Assembly (NCBI GenBank): GCA_019119995.1
Contig: DWVY01000042.1
Coordinates: forward strand, 1 to 64,000
DNA: 64,000 nucleotides
Direction of reading: 5' to 3'
Source: Candidatus Mediterraneibacter faecavium
GTDB taxonomy: Bacteria; Bacillota; Clostridia; Lachnospirales; Lachnospiraceae
Shown: positions 30,957 to 62,138 of the stretch, piece after piece
Numbering within the stretch: position 1 is the stretch's first letter
How the letters are laid out: the number at the start of each line of letters is the position of its first letter
Notes under the pieces: model-generated
Databases searched by the model: none
Told to the model about the DNA's origin: nothing
What the model saw: the letters and a program-made list of their open reading frames with translations, nothing else
Position numbers and translations under genes: made by a program

Positions 30957-30997
30957 GCAGAATACTGCAAGTCTTATTCCCATCAAAGCATTATAAT
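30957..30997 (+). promoter_or_regulatory. GH31 promoter with 16-bp shared operator
   Basis: GCAGAATACTGCAAGT (30957-30972), a near palindrome TTGCAG-AATA-CTGCAA, is followed 19 nt later by TATAAT (30992-30997); no good -35 box. The same 16-mer at the same distance from TATAAT occurs before the MFS gene (58810). It looks like an activator site covering the -35 position. Confidence 0.65.
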
Positions 30998-31042
30998 ACA
31001 ATGTAAACAATACAGATTTATAAGATCAAAGGAGGAAATGAC

Positions 31043-33067
31043 ATGATTCGGAAATACATCTATGGAACACCTTTTGAGACAGAAGCTGTCGTAACTGATA
31101 TTGCACAGGCAGATGGCACACCTGCTTACGGTGCGATCGACACGCAGAACGGCTTTTCTTTTACCTACATCATGGATGACGATGATATCGTCTACGGGCT
31201 GGGCGAGGCCAACCGCGGCATCAACAAGCGCGGCTACTGCTATATCAGCGACTGCACAGACGATCCGAACCACACGGAAGACAAGCGTTCTCTGTACGGC
31301 GCACACAACTTTATCATCATCGCCGGGGAGAAGAGCTTCGGCCTGTTCTTTGACTATCCGTCCAGGATCACATTTGACATCGGCTATACACGCATGGATA
31401 CTCTGACGGTTTCCTGCGAAGATGCAGACCTTGCTCTCTATGTGATCGACGGGGATTCGCCTTATGACATCGTAAAACAGTTCCGGAAAATAATAGGGCG
31501 CAGCTATATCCCGCCGAAATTTGCTTTCGGCTTCGGCCAGAGCCGCTGGGGATACAAGACAAAGGAAGATTTTGAAAAGGTCGCACAGGGCTACCGCGGG
31601 AATCACATTCCGCTGGATATGATCTATATGGACATCGATTACATGGATTCCTACAAAGACTTTACGGTAAACGATGAGTTCAGAGATTTTCCGGCATTTG
31701 TCCGTGAAATGAAAGACCGGCATATCCGCCTCGTCCCGATCATCGACGCAGGCGTAAAAGTCGAGGACGGATACGACGTCTACGAAGAAGGGGTGAAAAA
31801 CCGCTGGTTCTGCCAGAGAGAGGACGGAAGCGACTTTGTGGCGGCAGTCTGGCCGGGAGATACCCATTTTCCGGATGTGCTCAATCCCGAGGCGAGAAAA
31901 TGGTTCGGAGATAAATACCGCTTCCTCACGGATCAGGGCATCGAAGGCTTCTGGAACGATATGAACGAGCCGGCTATCTTCTACTCAAAGGAAGGGCTTG
32001 TAGAAGCGAAAGAGCTTGCGCGGCAGTTCGCAGATACCGGAACGAGCAACTGGGACGGAAGCGAAAAGGCGGAGGAAGTAAAAGAGGACATCGGCGTATG
32101 GCAGCTCGGCGACAAGCTGGGAAGCCTCGCAAACAGCCAGGATGATTATCGGAGATTCTATCACAATGTAAACGGACAGATGATCCGGCACGACAAGGTA
32201 CACAACCTGTTCGGCTTCAACATGACGAGAGCCGCCGGAGAAGCATTTGAGCGCATCGATCCGGACAAACGTTTCCTGATGTTCTCCCGTTCTTCTTACA
32301 TCGGGATGCACCGTTACGGCGGCATCTGGACGGGCGACAACAAATCCTGGTGGTCCCATATCCTGCTCAACCTGAAGATGATGCCGTCCCTAAACATGTG
32401 CGGATTCCTCTATGCAGGAGCTGATCTCGGGGGATTCGGCGCCGACACCACAAGAGACCTGCTGCTGCGTTTCCTAGCATTGGGCGTATTCACTCCGCTC
32501 ATGCGCAACCACTCCGCTCTGGGTACAAGGGAGCAGGAATGCTATCAGTTTGAACATATGGAAGACTTCCGTCATGTGATCGGCGTCAGATACCGCCTGC
32601 TGCCCTACCTGTACAGCGAGTACATGAAAGCAGCCCTGACGGACGATATGTATTTCAAACCGCTCGCTTTCGTATACCCGGACGACAAAATGGCTTGCCG
32701 CATCGAGGATCAGCTCATACTGGGCAATGAGATCATGATCGCACCGGTTTACGAGCAGAACGCGAAAGGCAGATATGTATACCTGCCGGAAGAGATGAAG
32801 TTCGTGAAATTCCTGCCCGACGGAAGCATCTCTGAAGAAGTGCTCGGGCAGGGCATCCACTACGTGGACATCGCCCTCAACGAAGTGCCGCTCTTCATCC
32901 GCTGCGGCAAATGCATCCCGGTAGCTGACGCGGCAGAATGCGTAGATAAGATCGATATGGATACGATCCGGCTGATCGGGTATGAGGGAGCCGGATATAC
33001 GCTTTATGATGACGATGGAGTACATAAAGATTACGATATGGAGAAAAACTGCCAGGTATTAAAATAA
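31043..33067 (+). CDS. glycoside hydrolase family 31 alpha-glucosidase
   Basis: Retaining alpha-glycosidase of 674 residues without signal peptide, so it acts on imported oligosaccharides. Seen: the N-terminal GH31 sandwich, FGFGQSRWGYKTKEDFEKV, the catalytic nucleophile Asp in FWNDMNEPAIF (around residue 307), and the region WTGDNKSWWSHI with the acid/base Asp. The C-terminal part has PLFIRCGKCIPV. A very good ribosome site (AAAGGAGG) precedes the start. Its promoter shares a motif with those of the MFS and GH13 genes at 58.9-61.9 kb, so it is probably part of an alpha-glucoside system. Confidence 0.92.
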   Translation: MIRKYIYGTPFETEAVVTDIAQADGTPAYGAIDTQNGFSFTYIMDDDDIVYGLGEANRGINKRGYCYISDCTDDPNHTEDKRSLYGAHNFIIIAGEKSFGLFFDYPSRITFDIGYTRMDTLTVSCEDADLALYVIDGDSPYDIVKQFRKIIGRSYIPPKFAFGFGQSRWGYKTKEDFEKVAQGYRGNHIPLDMIYMDIDYMDSYKDFTVNDEFRDFPAFVREMKDRHIRLVPIIDAGVKVEDGYDVYEEGVKNRWFCQREDGSDFVAAVWPGDTHFPDVLNPEARKWFGDKYRFLTDQGIEGFWNDMNEPAIFYSKEGLVEAKELARQFADTGTSNWDGSEKAEEVKEDIGVWQLGDKLGSLANSQDDYRRFYHNVNGQMIRHDKVHNLFGFNMTRAAGEAFERIDPDKRFLMFSRSSYIGMHRYGGIWTGDNKSWWSHILLNLKMMPSLNMCGFLYAGADLGGFGADTTRDLLLRFLALGVFTPLMRNHSALGTREQECYQFEHMEDFRHVIGVRYRLLPYLYSEYMKAALTDDMYFKPLAFVYPDDKMACRIEDQLILGNEIMIAPVYEQNAKGRYVYLPEEMKFVKFLPDGSISEEVLGQGIHYVDIALNEVPLFIRCGKCIPVADAAECVDKIDMDTIRLIGYEGAGYTLYDDDGVHKDYDMEKNCQVLK

Positions 33068-33074
33068 CCGCAAA

Positions 33075-33123
33075 CGGGTAAGGTGACGTAGTAAAACCAG
33101 GTTTTACTACGTCACCTTACCCG
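33075..33123. repeat. REP-like palindrome, copy 1
   Basis: Perfect 49-bp palindrome with 24-bp arms and a single central A (33099). Core GACGTAGTAAAACC and complement; outer part CGGGTAAGGT. It lies between the GH31 stop and the acetyltransferase ribosome site. It shares the core with copies at 33767 and 38046 but its outer arms differ. Confidence 0.85.
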
Positions 33124-33137
33124 AAAAAGGAGGAGAA

Positions 33138-33758
33138 ATGGATAATATTGAGAGAAGAGACCGGGAGATGGCATACATCTCCGACGAGTCTGTAATGGAA
33201 GAACAGAAAGTATGCCGCAGGATCCTGCAGCGCCTGAACACGGCGGACCGTTCCGATTTTGACGCGATCAGCAGGATCGTAAAAGAGCTTCTCGGGAAAT
33301 CCGAAGGCGCATTTATCAATCCGCCGTTCTATTGTGATTATGGTTCCCACATCGAGGCGGGTAAAAATTTCTTTGCAAATTATAACTGTACGATCATCGA
33401 TGTGGCAAAGGTAACGATCGGCGACAACTGCCAGATGGCTCCCAATGTAGCCATCTATACGGCAGGGCATCCGCTCCACCCCGTCTCCCGCAACTCTATG
33501 TATGAGTACGGCATCAGCGTGTCCATCGGCGATAATGTATGGATTGGCGGCAACACCGTCATCCTGCCGGGCGTACATATCGGAAGCAATACCGTCATCG
33601 GCGCGGGGAGCGTCGTGACGAAAGATATCCCTGACTGGGTCGTAGCTGCCGGGAATCCGTGCAGAGTGATCAAACAGATCACAGAAGAGGACAAGAAATA
33701 CTACTATAAAGATAGAGAATTCGATCCTGAGGCGTGGGAGTATATATCCAAACTTTAA
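33138..33758 (+). CDS. maltose/galactoside O-acetyltransferase-like enzyme
   Basis: Hexapeptide-repeat sugar O-acetyltransferase of 206 residues (Maa/LacA/NodL type). An N-terminal Maa domain (about 10-65) is followed by INPPFYCDYGSHIEAGKNFFANYN, VAIYTAGHPLHP with the catalytic His, and repeats IGDNVWIGGNTVILPGVHIG and GAGSVVTKDIP. It would acetylate a free sugar or glycoside with acetyl-CoA, often to clear non-metabolised sugars. It sits between two palindromic repeats, downstream of the GH31 gene; both may be transcribed together. Confidence 0.9.
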   Translation: MDNIERRDREMAYISDESVMEEQKVCRRILQRLNTADRSDFDAISRIVKELLGKSEGAFINPPFYCDYGSHIEAGKNFFANYNCTIIDVAKVTIGDNCQMAPNVAIYTAGHPLHPVSRNSMYEYGISVSIGDNVWIGGNTVILPGVHIGSNTVIGAGSVVTKDIPDWVVAAGNPCRVIKQITEEDKKYYYKDREFDPEAWEYISKL

Positions 33759-33766
33759 CCGTAAAT

Positions 33767-33813
33767 GGAAATGGGGACGTAGTAAAACCGGATTTCACTA
33801 CGTCCCCATTTCC
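33767..33813. repeat. REP-like palindrome, copy 2
   Basis: 47-bp palindrome with two mismatches, arms GGAAATGGGGACGTAGT and complement, centre 33790. It lies between the convergent ends of the acetyltransferase (+) and helicase (-) genes and may serve as their terminator stem. Core equals copies 1 and 3. Confidence 0.85.
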
Positions 33814-33826
33814 ACCATTTCCATTT

Positions 33827-36800
33827 TTAATCCATATACGGTAATTCCAGCAGTTCCAGTAGATCTTCCCTGCTCATGCCGCCGAGCTGTCCGGTCTCCC
33901 CGCCGATGACCTGGTCTGCCAGATTTTTCTTTGTTTCCTGAAGTTTCTGTATTTTTTCTTCAATCGTGTTTTTCGCAATAAGTTTATACACTGTCACTTT
34001 CTTCGTCTGTCCGATACGGTGCGCGCGATCCGTCGCCTGGTTCTGCGCCGCCACATTCCACCATGGATCGTAGTGGATAACTACATCGGCGCCGGTCAGG
34101 TTCAGTCCCACACCGCCCGCTTTGAGCGAGATCAAAAACAGCGGCGTATCCCCTTTATTGAACTTCTTTACCAGCTCCAGGCGCTCCTGTTTCGGAGTGG
34201 ATCCTGTGATCACGTAGTAGCTGATCTCCGCACTGTCCAGCTCTCTTTTCAGGATATCCAGCATAGATGTAAACTGTGAGAACAGAAGGATCCTGTGTCC
34301 TCCCTCGATGGCACTTCTCACCAGATCGATGCAGGCTTCTGCCTTTGCCGCGCCTTTATCATAATTTTCGAAACACAGCGCCGGGTCGCAGCAGATCTGT
34401 CTGAGCTTCGTGATCTCTGCCAGAATGCGGAAGCGGTTCTTATTGAACTCTTCCTGCCCGCCGCTCTCAATGCTTTCACGGAGCTTAAGCACCTGGGCGT
34501 CATACAGCTTCTGCTGCCCGCTCTCGAAGCGCACATATCTGGTCTCTTCCAGTTTTTCAGGAAGGTCTTTGAGCACGTCTTCCTTGACTCTTCGCAGGAT
34601 GAAAGGCGAGACCATTTTTTTCAGCCGTTCCATTGCCTCTTCGTCCTGATGCTTTACGACCGGGCTCTCGATCTCACGCCGGAATACATCATATCCGTAC
34701 AGGAATCCGGGCATCAGATAATCGAAAATGCTCCACAGCTCGCTCAGCCGGTTCTCGATCGGCGTTCCGGTCAGTGCATATCTGGTGCGGCTTTTGATCA
34801 CTTTGACAGCCTTTGACGCTGCCGTCGCATGATTCTTGATATACTGGGCCTCATCAATCACCTGATACCGGAACTCTTTCTCTTCATACAGCGCGATATC
34901 TCTTCGCAGCAGGTCGTATGACGTCACAAGCACATCAGATGTTTCCCAGTCTGCGAGCAGTTCTTTGCGCGCATCCTGCGATCCGGTGACAAGCGTAACT
35001 TTAAGCTCCGGGGCAAACCGTGCAAATTCCTCTCCCCAGTTGAACACGAGAGACGCCGGCGTAATAATCAGTGACGTGCCTTTCTTTCCCTCCTCCTTTG
35101 CCGCGAGAAGCACGGAAATGATCTGCAGTGTTTTCCCAAGGCCCATATCATCCGCCAGTATCCCGCCGAAATTCCAGGCTTCCAGTGTCCGAAGCCATTT
35201 GTAACCCGTCTTCTGATAATTCCGCATAATACCGGAAAGGCTTGACGGCTCTTCAAAATCCGCGTCTGAGATCGTTTTAAATCCTTTGACCATCTCCCTG
35301 AAACGGCTGTCCCGGCTGGCATACACTTCTTCGTGCTCTTCCAGCATCCGTTCCAGATAAAGGGTGCGGTACAGTGGGAGATGCATGTTCCCTTTTATAA
35401 AATCTTTTTCTTTTAGGCGCAGTGCCTCTGCAAGCTCCGAGAGCATCCGCACGGAATCTTCTTCCAGATCGGCGAAAGCCCCGTCCTTCAGTCTGTAGTA
35501 TTTCTTTTTCTGACGGTAGCTCTCCAACAGATCCATCAGTTCCTCCGGCGGCACGTCTGTCGTCGTGATATCAAGATTTAGAAGCCCCGACGATACCGAG
35601 ACGCCGACAGACACTTTCACTCTGCGCACTGCCTGGCGGTTTCTGAACGCTGCGGTACAGCGGACTTCCCCCAGAGCGAGCAGGGCGTCTGTCCCCTGCG
35701 CTGTCATCCGGTATATCGTCTCTTCCTCTCCTCCGCAGCACAGGCAGTCCCTTTCGATATCCGGATAAGGCAGCCACTGCATGACCTTTGCCAGCATCTC
35801 CGCCTCGCGGCTCTCATCCCGGAAGGACTCGATCATCCGGTCCTGATCCAGCAGTCCGACGGTTGAAAACTCCTGTCCTCCATATTTTGCAGAAATCTTA
35901 CAGGTGATATCTCCCTCTTCCGCATCCAGATAAAATGTAAATCTGACGTCCGGCGGCAGATATCTCCGGATCAGTTCGGGAGTTTCCTCTGTGACATCGA
36001 GGATATCTTCCAGATCGGGCAGGACTGTATAATAGAACTCCGCCATCCGGCTCCTGCCGATCGTAAAAGAGAACTGATCTCCGTCCGATATCGCAGCCAG
36101 CGGCTCTGTTTTCTTACGGAACTCCGCATCTGTCCTCAGCATTTTCCCGCCGGAAATGTAATAGGCAGTATCTGTCCCGTAGTAAAGGGACGGAAGTTCT
36201 CCGCTGACAGTGATCCCGTGGAATTCACGATCTCCCGTTATTTTCTTTTCGGATATCCTCACCTGGATTTCCGGATTCTTTTCTCCCGCGCTGATCATCC
36301 CTTTGAAATTATCGTCCTTATCTTCGCAGGATACGCCCCCGGTTTCCCGGAGAAGTTCATAAAACCGGTCCAGACGCCATCCGAACAGATTCACCGAGCT
36401 TCCGACCTTTGCCACTTTCGCCGCGCTGTAATAGCTTCTGTTGAGCAGCTTTTCCTCAAGCTGGTTCTCTTCCTGTATCATGCTGTCCAGAAAATGGAAC
36501 CATTTCTTCCCCTGCTCCGTAAGATCCTGCAGGCGGTGGCGGATGACCGTATTCTTTCCATATGTAGCTGTTTCCGCATTTTTGACTTGCCGGCAGAACA
36601 GGCTCAGATCCTTTATCACATAAAGCTTTTCATTTCCTGTGCGGAAGGACAGTTCCAGCTTGTCGTATCGTTTGACCAGACGCGGCTCGAGGCGGAGCGT
36701 CTCCTGAGTCTTTCCATCGGATGCTATGGAATTTGCCCTTGATTTCTCGACAGCGCCCAGCACCACTTCCGCTTTCTGATCCGTCGCGTCGGTGAGCGGA

Positions 36801-37969
36801 TGATCCAGGAGAAATTCCTTAAGTTCAAGTGCAAGCGCAGCCGTATAGGCACAGGTCGTCTTTTGCGAATACCATCTCATATGATCTTTGAGACATTCCG
36901 CGCAGCGGCAGTCCGAATGGAGCACTTCATTTCGTGAAAAAACAAGGACGATATCGAACTCTCTTGTTCCTGATATTCCTCTTCCGAGCGCCTGCCCGCA
37001 CACTTCGCCCGTCATCCGGTCATAACAAGGTACGAGCCTGACAAGCTCCACCTTTCCTTCCTCAAGCAGCTTCCTGCCGGCAAGTTCCGTCACCGGCGAA
37101 AATCCCATCGACTCATAGATCCTGCTGCTGTCAAAATAATTGTACTGTGAAAGAGATGCAAGCTGCTCAATCCCGCTCTCCCCGGCGTCATCCGGATCTT
37201 CCCATGCTTCTCCCAGAAGTTCATATTCCTTTTCTCCGTCCTTCGGGATCTCGCCGCGTGTCTGCAGGAATTCGCGCACAGCCGAGATTTCTTCCTGCTG
37301 CTTCTCCTGACGCGCTTTCTCATCCGCCCGCCGTCTCGCTTCCTCCTCAAGACGCTTCTTCTCTTCCCTGCGCTTTTTCTCTAGCTCTTTGCGCTCCCGG
37401 TCTGTCATACGGCGTTTCTCCTCGTTTTTCTGCTTTGCCGCTTCCCGCTCCCGGGCCGCAGCCGCCTGGCGTTTTCGTTCCTCTTCTTTCCGTTTTTTCT
37501 CCTCTTTGCGTTTCCTGCGCGCTTCTCTGCGCTGTTCTGTTTCCTTTTGCTGTTCCGCCATCTTGCGCATCTCTTCTTCCCTGCGCAGCTTCTCTTTCTC
37601 GCGCATCTCTTCTTCCCTGCGCAGTTCCTCAGCCTTGCGCCGTTCTTCTGTCTTACGCAGCCTTCTTTCTTTTGGGTGCGCCTTTTCTACAGATTCCGGT
37701 GTCCTGGCTTCTTCCGGGTGAAGGGCGTAGAGCACCGCTGCCATATGACCGCAGTTTCCGCCGCCCCTTGCCATGGGGCAGGTGCACTTCCCTCTCGTAA
37801 AGCTGCCGTCTTTCATAAAGAGCGTCACCTCATAGCGGTGTGTTCCGAGTACAGCCGCTGTATATTTTCCGTCTTTCTCAGTCAGATCAGCCACGCGCCC
37901 TTTCAGGAATTCATCTCTCCCGTAATCGAGAGCGTTTTGTCTGAAGTGCTTTTTCCAATCTTCCGCCAT
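33827..37969 (-). CDS. SWIM-domain SNF2 family helicase
   Basis: Large SNF2/SWI2-type ATPase of 1380 residues. Order: SWIM zinc motif C62-x-C64...C73-x-H75; a very long Lys/Glu/Arg-rich coiled coil (about 95-235); a poorly conserved middle; the ATPase with Walker A in DDMGLGKTLQ (about 940), DEAQ box in VIDEAQYIKN (about 1038), TGTPIENRLSELWSIFDYL; and the helicase C-domain with LLFSQFTSMLDIL, GLNLTGADVVIHYDPWWN and the arginine finger region TDRAHRIGQ. It probably remodels protein-DNA complexes; the client is unknown. It is flanked on both sides by the same palindrome family. Confidence 0.9.
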   Translation of the reverse strand: MAEDWKKHFRQNALDYGRDEFLKGRVADLTEKDGKYTAAVLGTHRYEVTLFMKDGSFTRGKCTCPMARGGGNCGHMAAVLYALHPEEARTPESVEKAHPKERRLRKTEERRKAEELRREEEMREKEKLRREEEMRKMAEQQKETEQRREARRKRKEEKKRKEEERKRQAAAAREREAAKQKNEEKRRMTDRERKELEKKRREEKKRLEEEARRRADEKARQEKQQEEISAVREFLQTRGEIPKDGEKEYELLGEAWEDPDDAGESGIEQLASLSQYNYFDSSRIYESMGFSPVTELAGRKLLEEGKVELVRLVPCYDRMTGEVCGQALGRGISGTREFDIVLVFSRNEVLHSDCRCAECLKDHMRWYSQKTTCAYTAALALELKEFLLDHPLTDATDQKAEVVLGAVEKSRANSIASDGKTQETLRLEPRLVKRYDKLELSFRTGNEKLYVIKDLSLFCRQVKNAETATYGKNTVIRHRLQDLTEQGKKWFHFLDSMIQEENQLEEKLLNRSYYSAAKVAKVGSSVNLFGWRLDRFYELLRETGGVSCEDKDDNFKGMISAGEKNPEIQVRISEKKITGDREFHGITVSGELPSLYYGTDTAYYISGGKMLRTDAEFRKKTEPLAAISDGDQFSFTIGRSRMAEFYYTVLPDLEDILDVTEETPELIRRYLPPDVRFTFYLDAEEGDITCKISAKYGGQEFSTVGLLDQDRMIESFRDESREAEMLAKVMQWLPYPDIERDCLCCGGEEETIYRMTAQGTDALLALGEVRCTAAFRNRQAVRRVKVSVGVSVSSGLLNLDITTTDVPPEELMDLLESYRQKKKYYRLKDGAFADLEEDSVRMLSELAEALRLKEKDFIKGNMHLPLYRTLYLERMLEEHEEVYASRDSRFREMVKGFKTISDADFEEPSSLSGIMRNYQKTGYKWLRTLEAWNFGGILADDMGLGKTLQIISVLLAAKEEGKKGTSLIITPASLVFNWGEEFARFAPELKVTLVTGSQDARKELLADWETSDVLVTSYDLLRRDIALYEEKEFRYQVIDEAQYIKNHATAASKAVKVIKSRTRYALTGTPIENRLSELWSIFDYLMPGFLYGYDVFRREIESPVVKHQDEEAMERLKKMVSPFILRRVKEDVLKDLPEKLEETRYVRFESGQQKLYDAQVLKLRESIESGGQEEFNKNRFRILAEITKLRQICCDPALCFENYDKGAAKAEACIDLVRSAIEGGHRILLFSQFTSMLDILKRELDSAEISYYVITGSTPKQERLELVKKFNKGDTPLFLISLKAGGVGLNLTGADVVIHYDPWWNVAAQNQATDRAHRIGQTKKVTVYKLIAKNTIEEKIQKLQETKKNLADQVIGGETGQLGGMSREDLLELLELPYMD

Positions 37970-38045
37970 TGTATATGATTCTTCGCTTTCTCTCTAAATT
38001 GCAGACTCCTGTCTGCTCCCGGAACATTGTACCATAATTCATCCG

Positions 38046-38102
38046 AAAATGGAAATGGGGACGTAGTAAAATCAGGTTTTACTACGTCCCCATTTCCATT
38101 TT
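38046..38102. repeat. REP-like palindrome, copy 3
   Basis: 57-bp palindrome with one mismatch, centre 38074; outer arms AAAATGGAAATGGGGACG match copy 2 rather than copy 1. It lies between the helicase gene start and the end of the AEC transporter gene and overlaps the last base pairs of the latter. Confidence 0.85.
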
Positions 38103-39045
38103 ACACCATCCCCGTGCTTCTAAGTATATAAAGCCATCCCGTCAGCGTAAATGCGCTGAACAGTGTCGTCAGCATGACCACGCTGGACGTCAGCACGCCC
38201 TCATGTCCCATGTTGCGCGCCATCACATAGCAGCTCACCGTCGTCGCCGAACTGAGCATGACAAGGATCGCCACCAGTTCTTCCTGTCTGAACCCCATCC
38301 AAACAGCCAGCGGCAGGAACATTGCGGCAAACAGCACCAGTTTCATAACGGACGCGGTAACTGCGGGCTTTGCTTTTCCGAATGCCTTCTTCAGGTCGAA
38401 GCTTGCGCCCATCGCCATCAGTCCGAGAGGAGTAGCCGTCGCCCCGATATCCGATACCGTCTTCTCCAGAATGGACGGCATGGGCAGCCTGAGGGCTGAC
38501 CACACAAGCCCTGCCACGATACCGAGGATGATCGGATTTGTAATGATCCCTTTGAGCGTCGTCATCCACACTTCCTTATCCAGCTTCTTTCTCTCCGGCT
38601 GGAAGAATGAGAGCACGACCACTGCCATGATATTATACAGAGGCACGCTTCCAATAATCATAAGCGGAGCCATCCCCGCATCCCCGTATATATTCTGGAT
38701 AAATGCGATCCCCAGAAGGGCTGCGCTACTCCGGTACGACGCCTGTATGAATTCTCCCTGTATGCTCTTATCTCTCCACAGAAACGACACCAGCGCCGCA
38801 ATGATAATGCATATCAGAGTAACCGCGAAACAGAACAGAACAAATTTCAGGTTCCACACCTGGGCGAAATCCACTGTCGAGAGATCCTCAAACAGCAGGA
38901 CCGGCAGGGGAACGATGAATACAAATTTATTCATTTTAGATGCAAATGCATCGTCGATCAGACCGAGTTTATTGAAAATATAGCCCAGCACCATCAGGAG
39001 GAAGATGGGAACTGTGGCGTTCAGGCTGAAGATCAGATTGTCCAT
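38101..39045 (-). CDS. AEC family (auxin efflux carrier-like) transporter
   Basis: Membrane protein of 314 residues with about ten hydrophobic helices in two halves, matching the AEC family (PF03547). Seen: NATVPIFLLMVLGYIFNKLGLID at the start, FVFIVPLPVLLFEDL, and SSATTVSCYVMARNMG in the second half. Bacterial members move small dicarboxylates such as malate or are uncharacterised. No linked enzyme gene indicates the substrate here. The stop codon lies within the third palindrome. Confidence 0.85.
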   Translation of the reverse strand: MDNLIFSLNATVPIFLLMVLGYIFNKLGLIDDAFASKMNKFVFIVPLPVLLFEDLSTVDFAQVWNLKFVLFCFAVTLICIIIAALVSFLWRDKSIQGEFIQASYRSSAALLGIAFIQNIYGDAGMAPLMIIGSVPLYNIMAVVVLSFFQPERKKLDKEVWMTTLKGIITNPIILGIVAGLVWSALRLPMPSILEKTVSDIGATATPLGLMAMGASFDLKKAFGKAKPAVTASVMKLVLFAAMFLPLAVWMGFRQEELVAILVMLSSATTVSCYVMARNMGHEGVLTSSVVMLTTLFSAFTLTGWLYILRSTGMV

Positions 39046-39208
39046 GATATAAGACTCCTTTTCTCTAAAGTTTTCTTACAAGGCTTCCCCGTTTTTAATG
39101 TTGTGCAGGGATCGCCAGAAGCTTACGCACCCTGCTCTCCAGATGTTTCTCAATAGCCCTCAGGTGTTGTTCCAGCAGATTGAGACTGGGATGACGCCTG
39201 AACCTGAA

Positions 39209-39535: not shown

Positions 39536-39561
39536 AGCCTCTCACCTCGCTGTTTTTAATG

Positions 39562-42097: not shown

Positions 42098-42106
42098 TTC
42101 GTCACT

Positions 42107-53438: not shown

Positions 53439-53460
53439 GATATAACGACTACGAAGATCC

Positions 53461-53486
53461 AGCCCGCCTCTTGCGGGCTGTTTCTT
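53461..53486 (+). terminator. terminator after the OPT gene
   Basis: AGCCCGC (53461-53467) and GCGGGCT (53473-53479) with a 5-nt loop, followed by GTTTCTTTC. Read-through into the next two genes remains possible. Confidence 0.8.
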
Positions 53487-53528
53487 TCTGTGGTATGGTA
53501 TGTTGCAGCAGGAGGGAATCTCTTTATT

Positions 53529-54229: not shown

Positions 54230-54250
54230 CTGGCAGACAGCTTTTGCTTT
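54202..54250 (+). terminator. terminator overlapping the gene end
   Basis: AAAAGCTGTCT (54202-54212) and CAGTTA pair with TAACTG (54227-54232) and AGACAGCTTTT (54235-54245), one 2-nt internal loop, then GCTTTTT. The TAA stop codon at 54227-54229 is part of the stem. Confidence 0.85.
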
Positions 54251-54318
54251 TTCTATTGTTTTCTATTGCGGCAGGCCGGCCGTCTCTTCCGTGTCCCCGT
54301 GTCCGTCCTGCCGATCTG

Positions 54319-55134
54319 TCACGAATGGTAATACAGTTCGATCGGATCGATCGGATCAAAGGGATGCTCTTCTTCCATCTTTTTATTCCGGCCGCGGCGC
54401 TTGATCAGCTCGCCGCTCTTATTGTATACCCAGAATGAATAGACAAGCAGCTTGTTGATCTTCCCGATCTTCTCTTTTGTCGTCTTTCCATAGAGTGTAC
54501 CGCCGGCCTTGAGCGGCGTCTTCTTATGGATCAGAGAGATCAGTTCCGTCTCGCAGGTCACGGGTTCGGGCAGGATCGTATAGCCTGTCCCCACGCAGTC
54601 CGGCTTATGCGCGTCGCTTCCGCCTGTCGTGACCTTGCCGTATTTCCTCGCCAGCTTTTCGGCGCCGGCGTTGGATTCTGCCGGCTCGCAGCTGTTAAAT
54701 GCCTCGACAAAATCAAACCGCTTCGTGATCTCCGGCGAGAGATAGAACCTTCTCGCGTGGGTAAAGCTCATATACTTCTCCCCGCACGGATGCGCCGGCC
54801 CGAGCACTCCGCCGTTCCTGTGCACCAGATCTATGAGAAGCGCCAGAGGCATCCCCCTCATCTCAAGGAGCCTCATCTTGACTCCTTCCGGCATGATGAC
54901 AAGGATATGTCCCGCATCCCTTGTATCATACTCGATTCCCTTGAGCACCACAAAGTCCGTATGTTTCTTGCCTTTGATATGCTCTTTCCAGTAACGGTAT
55001 CCGTTATACGTATCATGATCCGTGATGACCATTCCCTGGAATCCGTGCTGCTTTAATATTGTAATGTATTCTTCCAGACCGACCTTGCTGTCGATGGAGC
55101 CTTCCTTTACGTGGCAGTGCATATCGATCTTCAT
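54319..55134 (-). CDS. PHP domain metal-dependent phosphoesterase
   Basis: PHP-superfamily protein of 271 residues. MKIDMHCHVKEGS at the start, ITDHDTYNGY, GIEYDTRDAGHIL, and GPAHPCGEK and GGSDAHKPD provide the metal-binding His/Asp set. These proteins hydrolyse phosphate esters, for example nucleotide or histidinol phosphates; the exact substrate is not visible. The ATG at 55134 follows AAAAGGGGGC and is preferred over a TTG at 55140. Confidence 0.85.
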   Translation of the reverse strand: MKIDMHCHVKEGSIDSKVGLEEYITILKQHGFQGMVITDHDTYNGYRYWKEHIKGKKHTDFVVLKGIEYDTRDAGHILVIMPEGVKMRLLEMRGMPLALLIDLVHRNGGVLGPAHPCGEKYMSFTHARRFYLSPEITKRFDFVEAFNSCEPAESNAGAEKLARKYGKVTTGGSDAHKPDCVGTGYTILPEPVTCETELISLIHKKTPLKAGGTLYGKTTKEKIGKINKLLVYSFWVYNKSGELIKRRGRNKKMEEEHPFDPIDPIELYYHS

Positions 55135-55231
55135 ACACAAGCCCCCTTTTGTTCTGTTCTCTTTATGATGTAGTTATCATAAACTAATTATACATCAAAT
55201 AACAGAGCAATGGCAATAATTGTTATGATTG

Positions 55232-55402
55232 TTATGATCTTGTAACAGCCAGCACAGCCGCAATACACCCGGCCCATGCTGCCGCATACACCGGCATGGG
55301 GATTGAAATCTCAGTAAAGCAGTACAAGACCGCCAAAACTATCAAAAAAATGATCCCTGAAACTGCTACGATCCCATTAATTACCGATCTTCTGATATCC
55401 AT
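55232..55402 (-). CDS. small two-helix membrane protein, 56 residues
   Basis: Short gene coding MDIRRSVINGIVAVSGIIFL and onward, with two hydrophobic helices (about 8-28 and 35-53) joined by a short turn containing Ser-Ile-Pro-Met-Pro. A good AGAAAGGTG site lies about 9 nt before the ATG, and the basic N-terminus followed by a helix is typical for membrane insertion. It sits alone between the DUF4203-like gene and the PHP gene, all on the same strand. No function is known to me. Confidence 0.6.
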   Translation of the reverse strand: MDIRRSVINGIVAVSGIIFLIVLAVLYCFTEISIPMPVYAAAWAGCIAAVLAVTRS

Positions 55403-55491
55403 AAAAAACACACCTTTCTCTGATAAGATCTACCTTTTGTTTCCTTTTGACAGGTATATCCTAACAGATCAGGTGTGTCATAAAACGGACT

Positions 55492-56238
55492 TTACTTTTC
55501 TTCTTCCGGCATATCATCCAGATTGTCCATCATAGCACGCGCCCTCTCCACCTCGTTTGCAGTGGACTTCTCTTCCCGGATCTCCGCTGCTTTCTGCAGA
55601 CTTTTCTTCTTCTGTTTCCTTGATTCCAACAGAAGCTGTACAAGAATGCCGATGATACAGATGACCACGCAAAGTGCGATAAGGATCGCATCGCCCGTCA
55701 CCGGGAGCAGGTGATAGACTGCAGTTCCTGCTATCGCCGCTCCATATATGGAAGTAACAATGATCGTAAGCGCAGCCACGAACCGAACCGCCAGGATCGC
55801 AGCCACAAGCGCGATCGCCAGGCAGATCGCGGTGCCGATCCAATCCTGCGGTGCGATCAGATACGTACTGACACTTCCCGCCGATACAAACACGGTAAGA
55901 AATACACCGACGCGGTAGAGTGCTGCGCCGAGGACTGCGAGGATCAGTCCCAGCACACCGCCTGTGATGAGCATTCCCATTCCGTTCAGTCCCAACAGGC
56001 CGCCTGCCGTCACTCCAAGTGCAAACCCGAATGCGAGTCCGGTCAGCGCCGCCCATACCCGGATGATCTTCAGGCCCAGCAGGCAGATCAACAGCCCCAA
56101 TATTCCCGTGACCGCCAGTGCTGTTATTTCTGTCTGTGTCAGAGCATGACCGTCCCTGCCGATCTCGCGGATCACACCATTCAGATCAATTTCACGTATT
56201 GTATCAAATAATTCTTTTCCATCCATCATACTGTTCAT
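55492..56238 (-). CDS. DUF4203/TMEM198-like membrane protein
   Basis: Membrane protein of 248 residues with seven closely packed hydrophobic helices (about 38-205), an N-terminal soluble part and a charged C-terminal tail rich in Lys and Glu that is probably a coiled coil (ESRKQKKKSLQKAAEIREE). LKIIRVWAALTGLAFGFALG and GLILAVLGAALYRVGVFL fit the DUF4203 (TMEM198-like) family. Function unknown. It lies 11 bp after the WYL regulator gene on the same strand, so both are likely one unit. Confidence 0.7.
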   Translation of the reverse strand: MNSMMDGKELFDTIREIDLNGVIREIGRDGHALTQTEITALAVTGILGLLICLLGLKIIRVWAALTGLAFGFALGVTAGGLLGLNGMGMLITGGVLGLILAVLGAALYRVGVFLTVFVSAGSVSTYLIAPQDWIGTAICLAIALVAAILAVRFVAALTIIVTSIYGAAIAGTAVYHLLPVTGDAILIALCVVICIIGILVQLLLESRKQKKKSLQKAAEIREEKSTANEVERARAMMDNLDDMPEEEK

Positions 56239-56249
56239 ATCAATACCCC

Positions 56250-57245
56250 TTAATCAATATTTTTGTATATTTCCCCTAAGTCTTTAAGCAGACTCCTGTA
56301 CTCATCGACCACAGACTGCGGCGAAAGGATCTGCACGTCTCTCCCCAGACCGGTGATCCATCCGAAAAACTGCTCGCTCACAGCAATCTCCACGCGGGCG
56401 ATAAAATGTTCCTCTCCGTCCGGCCGGAGTGACACATTCTTGCCGAATCTGTCGATCACAACGCCCACAAATCTGTTGTGGAACCGGATGCGGACTGTCT
56501 CTTCGCTGCCGCCGAACATCCCGAAAGTCTGCTTTGTATACCGCGCAAGATCGAATCGGGAGAATTCATCACGTCCGTCTCTCTCCTGTCCGGTAATCTC
56601 AATGTGCAGCATCTTATCCACACGGAAATGTTTGATGATCCCCGCATCTGTGTCATATCCGATCAGATAATAGTTCTCGCTGTCCCAGGTCAGCGCCCAG
56701 GGACTTACATGATAGTTCTCTCCGCTCTTTTTCAGGCGGATCTCTTTGGAGACCGTCCACTCAAAATACCGGAACATGATCTGACGGTTCCATGCGATCG
56801 CCGAATGGATCTTATCTACATTATAATAGATACTTTCGTTCATCGCCTTAATGCGGTCAGCGACGACAACCTGCCGCTGCAGCTTGTGCGCCTCGTATCT
56901 GCTGGTCAGCTTCTCGATCTTCCGGATCAAAGCATCTGACTTCTTCTGCGTGATAAATCTTGACGACTGTACTGCATCCACAAGGAGTTTCAGCTCCGGA
57001 AGCTCGAACTCTCTTTCCGCAAGATAATACCCTTCCGGATGTTCCTTCCGGTAAGAAATATCCATGCCGAAATTCTTCAGAGTCTCAATATCATTATACA
57101 GACTCTTTCTCTCCGCATGGATCCCGAGATCCGCCAGCTTCTCTTCCAGTCCTTTCCGGGAGATCGGATGTTCTTCATCCGTCTCTTCGAGGAACAGCTG
57201 CATCAGGTATAAAATTTTTGCTTTCTGGTTACTACTCTTTGCCAT
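56250..57245 (-). CDS. WYL domain transcriptional regulator
   Basis: Regulator of 331 residues with an N-terminal winged helix (KAKILYLMQLFLEETDEEHPISRKGL region, residues 1-70), a middle helical part and a WYL ligand-binding domain (IMFRYFEWTVSKEIRLK, YHVSPWALTWDSENYYLIGYD), then a C-terminal WCX domain. Such proteins sense nucleotides or single-stranded DNA ends. Target genes are unknown, but the co-oriented membrane protein gene follows at once. A TTGACA-N17-TATTAT promoter lies 380 bp upstream on this strand, leaving a long leader. Confidence 0.88.
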   Translation of the reverse strand: MAKSSNQKAKILYLMQLFLEETDEEHPISRKGLEEKLADLGIHAERKSLYNDIETLKNFGMDISYRKEHPEGYYLAEREFELPELKLLVDAVQSSRFITQKKSDALIRKIEKLTSRYEAHKLQRQVVVADRIKAMNESIYYNVDKIHSAIAWNRQIMFRYFEWTVSKEIRLKKSGENYHVSPWALTWDSENYYLIGYDTDAGIIKHFRVDKMLHIEITGQERDGRDEFSRFDLARYTKQTFGMFGGSEETVRIRFHNRFVGVVIDRFGKNVSLRPDGEEHFIARVEIAVSEQFFGWITGLGRDVQILSPQSVVDEYRSLLKDLGEIYKNID

Positions 57246-57625
57246 GAGCCTATTCTACCAATGATTCCTTTTATTGACAAGATACGATTTATATTATATA
57301 TACACACTGAAAGTGGATGCCAATCAATCCGTCTTGATCAACATCCACTTTCATACTGATATTTCTATCATTCTTTTTTACCTCTTTCTTCTATCTTTCT
57401 TTTTTTGATCGATAGATCTAACTTATGTTCCCGGTGGTCCGTACCTCCTTTACTTAAATTCCCATTGAACTTGAGCTCCTCGATGATCTTTTCCTCGATA
57501 TAGATTTTGCTTCTCTCATAACTTTCTCGTCATTATGATCTTTCTCTATATCCGATCACCCATTTCTCAATTCCGATATCCAATGGGTTTTATAAAACTT
57601 TCAATCAGTTTTATTTGTTGACATT

Positions 57626-57654
57626 ATAATAACTCTATTCTCCGTATTTGTCAA
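57626..57654 (-). promoter_or_regulatory. minus-strand promoter toward the WYL regulator
   Basis: TTGACA (57649-57654), 17 bp, TATTAT (57626-57631) on the minus strand. TTGAC also occurs on the plus strand at 57618, giving a GTTGAC/GTCAAC inverted repeat around the box. Confidence 0.55.
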
Positions 57655-57707
57655 CTTATTTTTTGATATTATTTATATTTTTTATAAATTATCAGTTAAT
57701 TATACAA

Positions 57708-57736
57708 TTGACTTCTATGCAGGGTACATTTAAAAT
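57708..57736 (+). promoter_or_regulatory. asnA promoter
   Basis: TTGACT (57708-57713), 17 bp, TAAAAT (57731-57736); start near 57743, about 40 nt before the asnA ATG, which has AAGGAG. Confidence 0.7.
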
Positions 57737-57783
57737 AGAATAGAATGTCAAAATCAATGAATTTATAATAAGGAGTCTTAACA

Positions 57784-58794
57784 ATGGAAAACTTAAAAAT
57801 ACCTGAGGGCTACTCCTCTCCGCTCACGATCCGCGAGACAGAGGTAGCCATCAAAGAGGTCAAAGATCATTTTGAGCGGGCGCTTGCCAAATCACTGCAT
57901 CTGACACGTGTCTCCGCTCCTCTCTTTGTCCGCCCGGAGACGGGTATGAACGACAACTTAAACGGCGTGGAACGCCCGGTATCATTCGGCATCAAAGAGC
58001 AGGACGATGCAGAAGCCGAGATCGTGCACTCTCTTGCAAAATGGAAACGCTACGCGCTGAAGAAATACGGTTTCCACTCAGGGGAGGGCCTCTACACTGA
58101 TATGAGCGCCATCCGCCGGGATGAGGATACCGACAATATCCACTCGCTCTATGTGGACCAGTGGGACTGGGAGAAGATCATCTCCAAGGAAGAGCGCAAT
58201 ATGGAGACGCTTCAGTACACAGTGCGCAAGGTATACAGCGCCCTGAAAGACACTGAGGATTACATATCCAGAAGGTACAACTATATCGAGCCTCTCCTTC
58301 CGGACGACATCTTCTTTATCACTTCCCAGGAACTTGAGGATCTGTATCCGGACTGCACTCCGAAGGAACGTGAAACGAAGATCGCCAAGGACAAAGGCGC
58401 AGTATTCATTTCCCAGATCGGCAAGATCCTCGCTTCCGGCGAGAAGCATGACGGCCGTGCGCCGGACTATGACGACTGGGAGTTAAACGGGGATATCATC
58501 GTATATTACCCGGTGCTTGACATGGGACTGGAGCTCTCTTCCATGGGCATCCGCGTAGATGAGGAATCTCTTAAAAACCAGCTTAAGATCGCGGGCTGCG
58601 AAGAGCGCGCGGAACTGCCGTTCCAGAAATCCCTGCTGAACAAGGAGCTTCCCTACACAGTCGGCGGCGGGATCGGACAGTCCCGTATCTGCATGTATTA
58701 TCTGAGAAAAGCGCACATCGGCGAAGTGCAGTCTTCCCTGTGGCCGGACGATGTGGCGGAAGAAGCGCTTGCCCACGGCATCAATCTGTTATAA
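57784..58794 (+). CDS. asnA: aspartate-ammonia ligase
   Basis: Ammonia-using asparagine synthetase of 336 residues, related to class II aminoacyl-tRNA synthetases. [52 protein letters not shown]-like [12 protein letters not shown] and the motif 3 region [28 protein letters not shown] are diagnostic. It forms asparagine from aspartate, ammonia and ATP with AMP release. Stands alone with its own promoter. Confidence 0.96.
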
Positions 58795-58809
58795 TTGTGT
58801 TATAATCAG

Positions 58810-58850
58810 GCAGAATACTGCAAGTAATGCCAGATATATGCCGGTATAAT
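58810..58850 (+). promoter_or_regulatory. MFS gene promoter with 16-bp shared operator
   Basis: GCAGAATACTGCAAGT (58810-58825) is identical to the site before the GH31 gene, and TATAAT (58845-58850) follows at the same 19-nt distance. No -35 box; an activator is likely needed. Confidence 0.65.
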
Positions 58851-58884
58851 GTTATCATCTTATTACATCAAAGGAGAAATCGAC

Positions 58885-60066
58885 ATGACACACTTATTAC
58901 TTGCGATCATATATCTGGCTTTTATCAGCCTCGGGCTGCCGGACGCTCTGCTAGGCTCCGCGTGGCCTACGATGTACACGGAATTCAACGTTCCCGTCTC
59001 TTACGCAGGGATCATCTCCATGATCATCTCACTGGGCACGATCGTATCCAGCCTGCAGAGCGACCGTCTGACGCGGAAGCTGGGCACCGGGAGAGTCACG
59101 GCCATCAGCGTGGCGATGACCGCCGCAGCGCTGTTGGGATTTTCCTTTACCCACTCGTTCTGGATCCTCTGCCTCTGGGCTGTTCCATACGGGCTGGGCG
59201 CCGGCAGCGTGGACGCGGCGCTGAATAACTACGTAGCGCTGCACTACAAGAGCCATCACATGAGCTGGCTCCACTGTATGTGGGGCGTGGGCGCGACGCT
59301 CGGGCCTTACATCATGGGATTCGCTCTTTCCGGCGGGCAGACATGGAATTCCGGTTACCGCTATATCGGCATACTTCAGATCATACTGACGGCATTCCTG
59401 ATCTTCAGCCTGCCGCTCTGGACGAAGCAGAAGAACAGGATCGCGACACAGGCATCAGGCGGCACAGCGGAAAGATCAGACAGAAAACCGCTCTCCCTTG
59501 CGGAGATCATACGGATCCCCGGAGCGAAGGAGGTCATGCTCTGCTTCTTCTGCTACTGCGCGATCGAGCAGACAGCCAGCCTGTGGGCCAGCAGTTATCT
59601 TCATTTATTTAAAGGGATTCCTGCCGAAACCGCCGCACGCTTTGCAGGTATGTTCTTCATCGGCATCACTGTGGGCCGGGCGATCAGCGGCTTTATCACA
59701 ATGAAGCTGAACGATGTGCAGATGATCCGGCTGGGACAGACCATCATTGCCGCCGGCATCATCGTCATGCTTCTCCCGGGGCCGGACATCATCCCCCTTG
59801 CCGGGCTGGTCATGATCGGACTGGGATGCGCGCCTGTGTATCCGTGCATCATCCACTCTACGCCGGATCATTTCGGAGCGGAACGGTCACAGGCAGTCAT
59901 CGGCGTACAGATGGCAAGCGCCTATGTCGGCACCTGCCTCATGCCGCCTTTGTTCGGACTGATCGCCAACCACATCAGCATCACGCTTTTCCCGGTCTAT
60001 ATGATGGCGCTGCTCATCCTTATGGCTGTGATGCACGAGCTGCTCACAAAGAAAACGATGCATTAA
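58885..60066 (+). CDS. major facilitator superfamily transporter
   Basis: MFS permease of 393 residues with 12 helices. LGLPDALLGSAWPTMYTEFN near the start and GLGAGSVDAALNNYVALHYKSHHMSWLHCMWGVGA-like region in helix 4-5 resemble the fucose/galactose permease (FucP)-related subgroup of Firmicutes. The ATG at 58885 follows AAAGGAG. Its promoter is twin to that of the GH31 alpha-glucosidase gene and it converges with a GH13 alpha-glucosidase gene, so an alpha-glucoside or other sugar is the likely substrate; this is inference. Confidence 0.85.
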   Translation: MTHLLLAIIYLAFISLGLPDALLGSAWPTMYTEFNVPVSYAGIISMIISLGTIVSSLQSDRLTRKLGTGRVTAISVAMTAAALLGFSFTHSFWILCLWAVPYGLGAGSVDAALNNYVALHYKSHHMSWLHCMWGVGATLGPYIMGFALSGGQTWNSGYRYIGILQIILTAFLIFSLPLWTKQKNRIATQASGGTAERSDRKPLSLAEIIRIPGAKEVMLCFFCYCAIEQTASLWASSYLHLFKGIPAETAARFAGMFFIGITVGRAISGFITMKLNDVQMIRLGQTIIAAGIIVMLLPGPDIIPLAGLVMIGLGCAPVYPCIIHSTPDHFGAERSQAVIGVQMASAYVGTCLMPPLFGLIANHISITLFPVYMMALLILMAVMHELLTKKTMH

Positions 60067-60128
60067 AAAAACAGTTCAACACCCCATCCCTGACGCGTGA
60101 ACTGTTATCTATATTGTTTTTCTAATGA

Positions 60129-60165
60129 CCGCCGCCTGCATATGCTGCACGCGGCGGCGTTTTTC
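60129..60165 (+). terminator. terminator after the MFS gene
   Basis: CCGCCGC (60129-60135) and GCGGCGG (60151-60157) form a stem whose loop holds TGCA pairs; TTTTT follows at 60160. A second CAGTTCA/TGAACTG stem lies just before it (about 60070-60106). Confidence 0.8.
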
Positions 60166-60189
60166 TGTAATTTCACGGGGTATCTGCTC

Positions 60190-61902
60190 TTACCGGAGCA
60201 GGATCACTGCGGATCCGCAGCTTTCGAGGGTGATCGTCCCTCTCTCCCTGATCTCCCGTGTCCCGGCTTCTTCTTTTCCTGTGTTGGACAGGAGTACTTT
60301 GCCGTTCTGACCGGCAAGTTGCAATGTACACGGCCCGGTTCCGTAATTTGCCGCAATGAGGATATCCTGCCCTGCGTCTTCCCCTGTGTTCCTATTCCCT
60401 GAGATCCTGTGATAAGCGAAGATATTGTCCTGCTCTTCATAATCCGGAACAAATTTCCCGTATGTAAACGTCTCTTTGTATTCCGGAGATTTCTTCAGGG
60501 CAAGCAGCTTCTTATAATAGGACAGGACAGAGTCCGGGCGTCCTGCCTGTTCGTCCACATTGATCTGCGTGTAGTTCGGATTGAGGGAAAGCCACGGCGT
60601 TCCGTCCGTAAATCCGGCTCCCGCTCCGGCGCTCCACTGCATCGGCGTCCTTGCGTTGTCCCTGCTGTTCTCATAGCAGTACTCCATTGCCTGCTCTTTC
60701 GTGCATCCGGAAGCCAGGGCTTCCCGGTACTGGTCTTTCGTGCTGATGTCGTCATACTCGGAGATATCATTTCTCCGGCAGTTGGTCATACCGATCTCCT
60801 GTCCCTGATAGATGAACGGGATCCCATAGAGCAATGTGGAAGTCGTGGCAAGCATCTTCTTGCCGGTCTCATTCTGCGCATATTCCGGGAGGAAACGACT
60901 CACTCCTCTTGGTTCGTCATGATTCTCAATGATGTTGGCAGGGAAACCCACGCCCTGCATCCGCTGCTGGGATGCGAAGATCGTGTCGCGCCACTCCCTG
61001 ACAGACGGTTTCCTGCTGTTGTGCCAGCCGCTCTCACCCTGCGCGAGCATATGTGCGCTGAAGTCAAACATTGTCGAGAAATGTCCGTCATCCCCGATGA
61101 ATTCTGCCAGCTCATCGTCTTTCATATTGAAGACTTCCGCAACGGTAAACGCATCATATTTGTCAAATGTATTTTTCTTGATCTCTTCAAAATACGCTCC
61201 GACTCCCCGTACTTCCTCCACCATCTTCACACAGGAAGCCAGTCCGTCCGGGCCGTCCGGCTCAAAGGCCGGGAAGCTTAAGTCCTTCTTGATATTGATG
61301 ATCGCATCAATGCGGAAGCCTGCCAGACCTTTGTCCAGCCACCAGTTGATCATCTTATAGATCTCCTGCCTCAGCTCCGGGTTCTCCCAGTTGAGATCCG
61401 GCTGTTCCCTGGCGAACATATGGAGATAGTACAGATCCGTCCCCGGCACCGGCTCCCACGCACTCCCGCCGAAATAGGAACGGTAATTGCTCGGCTCTTT
61501 GCCGTCTTTTCCTTTTACAAAATGGAAATACCCTGCATATTTCCCGTACGGGTCCTGCAATGCTTTCTGAAACCACTCGTGCTTGTCTGAGCAGTGGTTT
61601 ATCACCAGATCCATCAGGACATACATTCCCCGCTTCTTCGTCTCGGCGAGCAGCTCGTCGAACTCCTCCATTGTGCCGAATTCTTCCGCAATCTTATAAT
61701 AATCGGAAATATCATATCCCTGATCCACAAAGGGCGACTGATAGATCGGGGAAAGCCAGATAATGTCGATCCCCAGATCTTTGAGATAATCTAACTTCGA
61801 GATGATCCCCTTAAGGTCTCCGATCCCGTCGCCGTTCGTATCAAGAAAGCTCTTCGGGTAGATCTGATATGCCGCCTTGTCATGCCACCATTTTCTTTTC
61901 AT
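60190..61902 (-). CDS. GH13 oligo-1,6-glucosidase / alpha-glucosidase
   Basis: Cytoplasmic alpha-amylase-family enzyme of 570 residues. WWHDKAAYQIYPKSFLDTNG starts the barrel; conserved regions are DLVINHCSDKH (I), GFRIDAIINI with the nucleophile Asp (II), FTVAEVFNM with the acid/base Glu (III) and IIENHDEPR (IV). This fits MalL/DexB-like glucosidases acting on isomaltose, maltose, sucrose-type or short dextrin oligomers. The ATG at 61902 has AGGAG 9 nt before it; the open frame further upstream is not supported. It is divergent from an AraC regulator gene. Confidence 0.92.
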   Translation of the reverse strand: MKRKWWHDKAAYQIYPKSFLDTNGDGIGDLKGIISKLDYLKDLGIDIIWLSPIYQSPFVDQGYDISDYYKIAEEFGTMEEFDELLAETKKRGMYVLMDLVINHCSDKHEWFQKALQDPYGKYAGYFHFVKGKDGKEPSNYRSYFGGSAWEPVPGTDLYYLHMFAREQPDLNWENPELRQEIYKMINWWLDKGLAGFRIDAIINIKKDLSFPAFEPDGPDGLASCVKMVEEVRGVGAYFEEIKKNTFDKYDAFTVAEVFNMKDDELAEFIGDDGHFSTMFDFSAHMLAQGESGWHNSRKPSVREWRDTIFASQQRMQGVGFPANIIENHDEPRGVSRFLPEYAQNETGKKMLATTSTLLYGIPFIYQGQEIGMTNCRRNDISEYDDISTKDQYREALASGCTKEQAMEYCYENSRDNARTPMQWSAGAGAGFTDGTPWLSLNPNYTQINVDEQAGRPDSVLSYYKKLLALKKSPEYKETFTYGKFVPDYEEQDNIFAYHRISGNRNTGEDAGQDILIAANYGTGPCTLQLAGQNGKVLLSNTGKEEAGTREIRERGTITLESCGSAVILLR

Positions 61903-62057
61903 AGTAATGCGCTCCTCTCTCTTTTGCATAGTATGATGTCTGCGTTGTGGACTGCTGTGTACCGCGCAGTGCGGTTTTACGAATGGCGCGGGCTGAACCG
62001 CTGTCATTTCCACGGTACCGACATCATTCGATATTGCCTTTCTTGTATGATGCTGTT

Positions 62058-62089
62058 ATTATAGGCTTAAAGAGAAATGAATTCTTGCA
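62058..62089 (-). promoter_or_regulatory. GH13 gene promoter with TGCAAG half-site
   Basis: On the minus strand TATAAT (62058-62063) is preceded, 20 nt earlier, by TGCAAG (62084-62089), the same motif and spacing as in the GH31 and MFS promoters. A GCAGAAT half-site lies farther upstream at 62113-62119. The gap to the AraC gene is 236 bp. Confidence 0.5.
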
Positions 62090-62138
62090 CAATCATTTGA
62101 ATTAATAACACAATTCTGCTTTTTAGGAGGGTGGTTTT

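Follow-up and report, generated by a model that had tools for sequence, protein, structure and literature searches.

Three genes with predicted roles in alpha-glucan use are scattered over the 64-kb window analysed here (64,000 nucleotides of contig DWVY01000042.1 of Candidatus Mediterraneibacter faecavium): a GH31 alpha-glucosidase-like gene and, 28 kb away, a major facilitator superfamily (MFS) transporter gene next to a GH13 gene that is divergent from araC1, encoding an AraC-family regulator. A short motif is repeated in front of all three, and the locus raises the question of whether this motif is the operator of a single regulon and, if so, which protein reads it. We propose, with good confidence, that dispersed alpha-glucan genes of this organism share a bipartite AraC-family operator, with AraC1 as the likeliest activator and its paralogue AraC2 acting on malPQ. 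In plain terms, a gut bacterium appears to switch on scattered genes for starch-type sugars via one shared, paired DNA tag.

The sequence-only reading of the window had placed an identical 16-mer, GCAGAATACTGCAAGT, at 30957-30972 and 58810-58825, each copy followed after 19 nt by TATAAT, and had found TGCAAG at 62089-62084 on the minus strand of the GH13 promoter, 20 nt before TATAAT at 62063-62058; all of these positions are correct. Exact TGCAAG-N20-TATAAT has three occurrences in the window, where 100 shuffles lead one to expect 0.02, and four in the whole genome (2.84 Mb in 66 contigs, 90% complete). The fourth occurrence, on contig C8, is the malP promoter, upstream of malPQ and divergent from a second AraC gene, AraC2. 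GCAGAATACTGCAAGT itself is present in two exact copies, and the sole other match at up to two mismatches has two and lies inside an open reading frame (ORF) on contig C33. All clear matches in the genome-wide search fell in promoters, either of alpha-glucan genes or of the linked MFS gene, with no random scatter.

The motif is real, but the stretch first described as a shared operator is the proximal half of a bipartite direct repeat and not the whole operator. Two 15-bp half-sites stand head to tail in the arrangement GCAGnATtnTGyaAt-N6-GCAGnATnnTGCAAG-N20-TATAAT, with a period of 21 bp, or 22 bp in some orthologous promoters. When the columns were compared at shifts of 5 to 31, similarity was 2.39 at 21; shift 31 gave 2.12 over only 8 columns, and all other shifts gave 1.63 or less. 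The spacing was also followed in the 33 named GH13 control regions that carry the pattern: TGCAAG or TACAAG lies 20 nt from the -10 box in 31 of them and 21 nt in two, and the half-site period is 21 bp in 22 and 22 bp in 11. The proximal half-site ends 20 nt before the -10 box and covers the -35 position, which fits the poor -35 boxes already remarked on in the sequence-only reading; the GH31 promoter, the one scored for this, has no TTGACA-like hexamer 17 nt before its -10. Direct half-sites about two helical turns apart, with the proximal copy at the predicted -35 position, are the layout of AraC-type activation. The elements are as follows, with E values from model R1, which is described below.

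30936-30950, plus strand: distal half-site of the GH31 operator, GCATTTTTATGTCAT, 21 bp upstream of the proximal copy.
30957-30971, plus strand: proximal half-site of the GH31 operator, GCAGAATACTGCAAG, the motif first noticed (E 3e-14 for 30933-30997).
30992-30997, plus strand: GH31 -10 box TATAAT, 20 nt past TGCAAG.
58789-58803, plus strand: distal half-site of the MFS operator, TTATAATTGTGTTAT, read from the upstream sequence.
58810-58824, plus strand: proximal half-site of the MFS operator, GCAGAATACTGCAAG (E 1e-10).
58845-58850, plus strand: MFS -10 box TATAAT, from the motif search.
62105-62119, minus strand: half-site 1 of the GH13 operator, GCAGAATTGTGTTAT (E 2.6e-13).
62084-62098, minus strand: half-site 2 of the GH13 operator, AAATGATTGTGCAAG, from orthologous promoters.
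62058-62063, minus strand: GH13 -10 box TATAAT, overlapping the probable araC1 -10 on the opposite strand.

Orthologues were sought in 61 genomes, our own included, which yielded 29 matches to GH31, 34 to MFS, 21 to GH13 (at least 60% identity) and 23 to full-length AraC1 (at least 58%). Before GH31 the operator was present in 26 of the 27 promoters used (L030 and L031 were dropped because the gene start is absent), 24 of them at the 21-bp period and two, judged by eye, at about 22 bp; G033 has none. It was present before GH13 in 19 of 21 rows, a set that excludes our genome's own paralogue on contig C47, and both exceptions belong to other families. The MFS gene is different: among the 20 genus orthologues examined (at least 67% identity, the 14 more distant of the 34 being uncounted) only five have the operator, the G010 row with a score of 18.9 being counted as operator-free. 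The MFS gene stands closely behind GH13 in G013 and G024 and runs into AraC1 in G026, G016 and G005; the remaining genus MFS promoters among the 20, including that of the close relative G002, have no operator site. The motif is thus conserved in the orthologous promoters of related species and, together with the genome-wide matches, this supports the suggestion that loci 28 kb apart form one regulon.

To define membership, model R1 was built from sequence alone, using 40 of 43 distinct operators of GH31, MFS and GH13 and no malP sites; the alignment excluded two rows of the 22-bp register and the MFS row of G010. On our genome R1 returned its three training members (E values above) and, at E 6.8e-8, the malP site on which it had not been trained. 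The next match (E 0.007) is on contig C47, where it precedes a second GH13 gene with another acetyltransferase gene behind it; this GH13 gene is a possible fifth member. Matches on C50 (E 0.056), C2 (0.47) and C37 (0.68) were treated as chance, and one on the reverse strand of C7 (2.3) as an echo of the GH31 site. Across 41 Mediterraneibacter genomes R1 found 87 sites at E <0.001, comprising 33 malP/AraC2, 27 GH31, 20 GH13, five MFS and two acetyltransferase sites (G036 and G032), and none elsewhere in these genomes. A further 19 weaker rows (E 0.002 to 0.05), outside this tally, comprise two malP sites (G028 and G012), the C47 site, one GH13 paralogue in G008, five reverse-strand echoes of GH31 type and ten unplaced matches. 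The GH13 paralogue preceded by the G008 match (contig C8, 2291-2348, L184; E 0.026) has a further AraC-like gene divergent from it, and the two may form a third such pair. Outside the genus, no site reached E <0.001 in 24 genomes from other families, the best being 0.005; weak matches up to E 0.1 numbered 27, in 17 of the 24.

A MalP search found the protein in 39 of the 41 genus genomes, and all 33 malP sites, as well as the two weaker ones, lie just upstream of malP on the malP strand. Four of the 39 (G001, G015, G018 and G035) have malP and no site, and AraC2 was not found in any of these four; conversely, G024 and G012 have the site and AraC2 was not found, both sites being near contig ends. 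There is little variation among the 35 malP operators extracted, which follow ATAGTATTGTACAAT-N6-rAAGTATATTGCAAG with few changes, although these were taken at R1 matches with patterns written for them and so show constancy, not frequency. In our genome malPQ encodes an alpha-glucan phosphorylase (TIGR02093) and a 4-alpha-glucanotransferase (TIGR00217, malQ), both above cut-off. The three-gene regulon first suggested is right as far as it goes, but the regulon is wider, with malPQ, the acetyltransferase gene behind GH31 and perhaps the second GH13 gene.

The operator, its conservation, the membership of the regulon and the position of a third half-site described below can be read from the DNA, and from them we infer binding, activation, the inducer, autorepression and the araC1 promoter. 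Head-to-tail half-sites 21 bp apart would let a single regulator dimer bind along one helical face. Its proximal subunit would lie over the -35 position, and the promoter itself offers a good -10 but lacks a good -35. With an inducer bound, presumably an alpha-glucoside, the dimer would fill both half-sites and recruit RNA polymerase. AraC1 would activate GH13, MFS and GH31 in its own genome, and AraC2 would act on malPQ via a closely related operator and may act on GH31 too.

62139-63056, plus strand: araC1, AraC-family regulator of 305 aa (PF12833 1.1e-21, PF00165 2.2e-23, PF02311 6.5e-13).

The araC1 product has the features of the AraC/XylS family, a C-terminal pair of helix-turn-helix (HTH) motifs (PF12833, and PF00165 in two stretches) and an N-terminal AraC-like cupin ligand domain (PF02311). 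The proposal that this divergent gene supplies the regulator was reasonable in that it is the best placed, beside GH13 and MFS, with which it is also clustered in several genomes, but the paralogue beside malPQ on contig C8 is a real competitor for GH31. Our genome has 36 AraC-type HTH domains; in a comparison of 30 of them, AraC1 and AraC2 matched each other best, with 45% identity over the HTH. Their recognition helices (SEYHFMRFFKK/NLSYFYREFKKKYG and SKSHFMKFFKQ/NLSYFNRIFKRKYG) are alike, and conserved within each group. AraC2 was found in 29 of 37 genus genomes and additionally in G008. We consider AraC1 the probable main regulator of GH31, MFS and GH13 in the window. One line of evidence is that, in genomes with AraC1, the GH31 operators lean to the GH13 type over the malP type, whereas in genomes where AraC1 was not found they fall between the types (18 versus 5 rows with ranges that do not overlap; P 0.0009, or 0.027 when the rows lacking AraC1 are cut to two). 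This comparison left out G033, which has no site, and G007 and G022, which are in the 22-bp register; G024 was unclassified.

Several observations weigh against this assignment. With G033, G007 and G022 kept, the P value for the GH31 lean becomes 0.014 and the ranges overlap; moreover, the rows are related by descent, so that P overstates the evidence and the lean is a hint, not proof. In G010 (99% complete) and in G012, G014 and G030 (75-89%) no AraC1 orthologue was found at E 1e-40, yet these genomes keep the GH31 operator, which must then be usable by AraC2 or some other protein. That protein is probably AraC2, which is present in G010, G014 and G030; in G012 AraC2 was likewise not found, although its malP site is present and the contig ends 385 bp beyond that site. 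G033 has AraC2 and GH31 with no operator before GH31, and the MFS operator, at five of 20 genus orthologues, is gone even in the very close G002.

A possible alternative, which we rate below the division of labour proposed above, is that AraC1 and AraC2 have overlapping specificity and both bind all sites, so that two inducers feed one regulon. The 45% identity of the HTH domains would allow for this, as would the ability of R1, built without malP sites, to find malP sites in 35 of the 39 genus genomes with malP, and GH31 operators of the G010 type are nearly equal as GH13 or malP type (2.1 to 7.7 bits apart). However, the operator classes are distinct at fixed positions throughout the genus, malP having ATAGTATTGTACAAT / TATATTGCAAG where GH13 has GCAGAATTGTGTTAT / ATTGTGCAAG, which argues for separate specificity. 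It is unlikely that AraC2, and not AraC1, activates GH31 and perhaps MFS, leaving AraC1 to serve only GH13 and itself. AraC2 does adjoin an operator of the same design, its recognition helices resemble those of AraC1, and it is widespread in the genus, including the three genomes that keep the GH31 operator and in which AraC1 was not found; but wherever AraC1 is present the GH31 and MFS operators are nearer the GH13 than the malP type by 8.9 to 29 bits, and the MFS gene is linked to AraC1 or GH13 in several genomes.

A palindromic site of LacI or CRP type, GCAG-N4-CTGC centred near -41.5, was also considered and is very improbable. In the GH31 and MFS sites GCAGAATACTGC does read as an inverted repeat, and some GH31 sites give an R1 echo on the reverse strand, but the symmetry is absent from the GH13 and malP classes and from many GH31 orthologues (GCAGTATGGTACAAG and similar), whereas the 21-bp direct repeat is kept. 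That the two 16-mers, identical at places 28 kb apart, are a recent promoter duplication or mobile repeat with no regulatory role can practically be dismissed, since the two copies have different flanks, several species retain the site independently in front of each gene, and no further copies were found.

Returning to AraC1 as the likeliest activator, its own control region holds one more element. Past the GH13 -10, the sequence ACAGCATCATACAA repeats the half-site a third time, in the same orientation as half-sites 1 and 2.

62042-62056, minus strand: third half-site, ACAGCATCATACAAG, 42 bp downstream of half-site 2 and within the spacer of the probable araC1 promoter.
62034-62062, plus strand: probable araC1 promoter, TTGCCT at 62034-62039, 17 nt, then TGT-TATTAT at 62054-62062.

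The probable araC1 -10 overlaps that of GH13. The closest AraC1 homologues in named records are labelled Mediterraneibacter or carry older or looser names (Lachnoclostridium, Ruminococcus, uncultured Eubacteriales), and 38 of 41 AraC1 loci were examined (L258-L260 are partial or distant; several loci are from the same genomes as the orthologue set). The third half-site is present in 33 of the 38 named loci, 42 bp from half-site 2 in 31 and 43 bp in two, and reaches Roseburia inulinivorans. The TTG of the probable araC1 promoter is at the same distance in 32 of the 34 loci with a third site, the exceptions being L253 and L254. Of the five loci lacking the full pattern, L235 and L240 have AraC1 behind MFS, and L236 and L237 have no site upstream of AraC1. 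In the fifth, from Lachnoclostridium An169 (L250), half-sites 1 and 3 are kept, 65 bp apart compared with 63 or 64 elsewhere, as is the araC1 promoter; half-site 2 and the GH13 -10 have decayed, and no GH13 gene was found in the 21 kb examined. This is as expected if half-sites 1 and 3 are the repressing pair.

Since the third half-site falls within the spacer that separates the -35 from the -10 in the probable araC1 promoter, autorepression is the simplest reading: AraC1 bound there would probably repress araC1. A more far-reaching version, which we offer tentatively and regard as doubtful, is a compact AraC switch of about 80 bp without a distant loop site, in which half-sites 1 and 2 would activate GH13, half-site 3 would close both overlapping divergent promoters, and two paralogues with separate ligands would share a dispersed alpha-glucan regulon.

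The I1-I2 pair of araBAD has a 21-bp period, overlaps the -35 and is associated with a divergent regulator gene. E. coli AraC uses two adjacent half-sites by the polymerase site for activation and a further site for repression (PMC4486848, PMC8151288). The present system resembles it in having an AraC-family protein, an adjacent half-site pair next to the polymerase site and an extra site, and the I1-I2 layout indicates how the operator here sits on its promoter. It differs in its targets, which are dispersed alpha-glucan genes, and in that just 42 bp separate the third half-site from the second, upstream of it, which places the third within the probable promoter of the regulator gene itself; no distant O2-like site was seen, although no search was made for one. 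E. coli also has paralogous AraC proteins with related DNA-binding domains and overlapping sites, RhaS/RhaR and MarA/SoxS/Rob. Unlike these, each paralogue here is divergent from a different alpha-glucan operon and the operator classes are distinct.

Roseburia and Eubacterium rectale belong to the same family, Lachnospiraceae. In passages on their polysaccharide loci, AraC- and LacI-type regulators are given beside these loci, with LacI assigned to the starch locus and, with AsrR, to the glycogen locus (PMC5320581). The presence of AraC regulators beside glycoside hydrolase genes is common to both; however, those passages describe gene neighbourhood, and the term 'binding site' is absent from the main text (PMC5320581). 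No description of this operator or regulon was found in the open-licence literature searched. It would seem, then, that the kind of system is known and that this regulon is newly described. For gut Lachnospiraceae it supplies an operator code for an AraC-type regulon, ties the scattered GH31 and acetyltransferase, GH13, MFS and malPQ genes into one pathway, and provides a test case for how two paralogous regulators divide related operators.

The target genes in the window are the following.

31043-33067, plus strand: GH31 alpha-glucosidase-like gene, 674 aa (PF01055 9.8e-106).
33138-33758, plus strand: maltose-acetyltransferase-like gene (PF12464 Mac and hexapeptide).
58885-60066, plus strand: MFS transporter gene, 393 aa (PF07690 1.3e-35).
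60190-61902, minus strand: GH13 gene, oligo-1,6-glucosidase / alpha-glucosidase-like (PF00128 2.5e-130).

GH31 matches the alpha-glucosidase MalA model NF040948 at 3.3e-116, under the curated cut-off of that model. The acetyltransferase gene may be co-transcribed with it; among 27 loci searched, 12 have an acetyltransferase gene directly 3' of GH31, and in G032 and G036 the operator lies directly before this gene, with no GH31 found adjoining. Maltose-acetyltransferase-like genes stand 3' of both GH31 and the second GH13 gene (contig C47, L124, 3303-3929). The MFS start was corrected to 58885, which has a ribosome-binding site, from the 58849 of the mechanical ORF; from its gene context, adjoining GH13 or AraC1 in several genomes, the protein is a putative alpha-glucoside transporter. 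The GH13 start is probably 61902 and not the 62013 of the mechanical ORF, because near orthologues keep the beginning ATGAAAArrAAATGGTGGCATGA behind GAGAGGAG.

GH31 has its 5' region in common with a divergent GH2 gene (29004-30914), which the GH31 operator could also affect; in G010 a GH2 relative lies 3' of malQ (L125). Finally, a dispersed repeat containing TTCAGCCCGCGCCATTCGCAAA has 37 matches in the genome at up to three mismatches. In the window it occupies the GH13 leader (about 61930-62005, minus strand, with the matched core at 61976-61997), and it is also found in the malP-AraC2 intergenic region (contig C8, 22749-22770). G002 and G004 carry it between the GH31 gene and its operator, so that the leaders of regulon genes are a recurrent target of this repeat.

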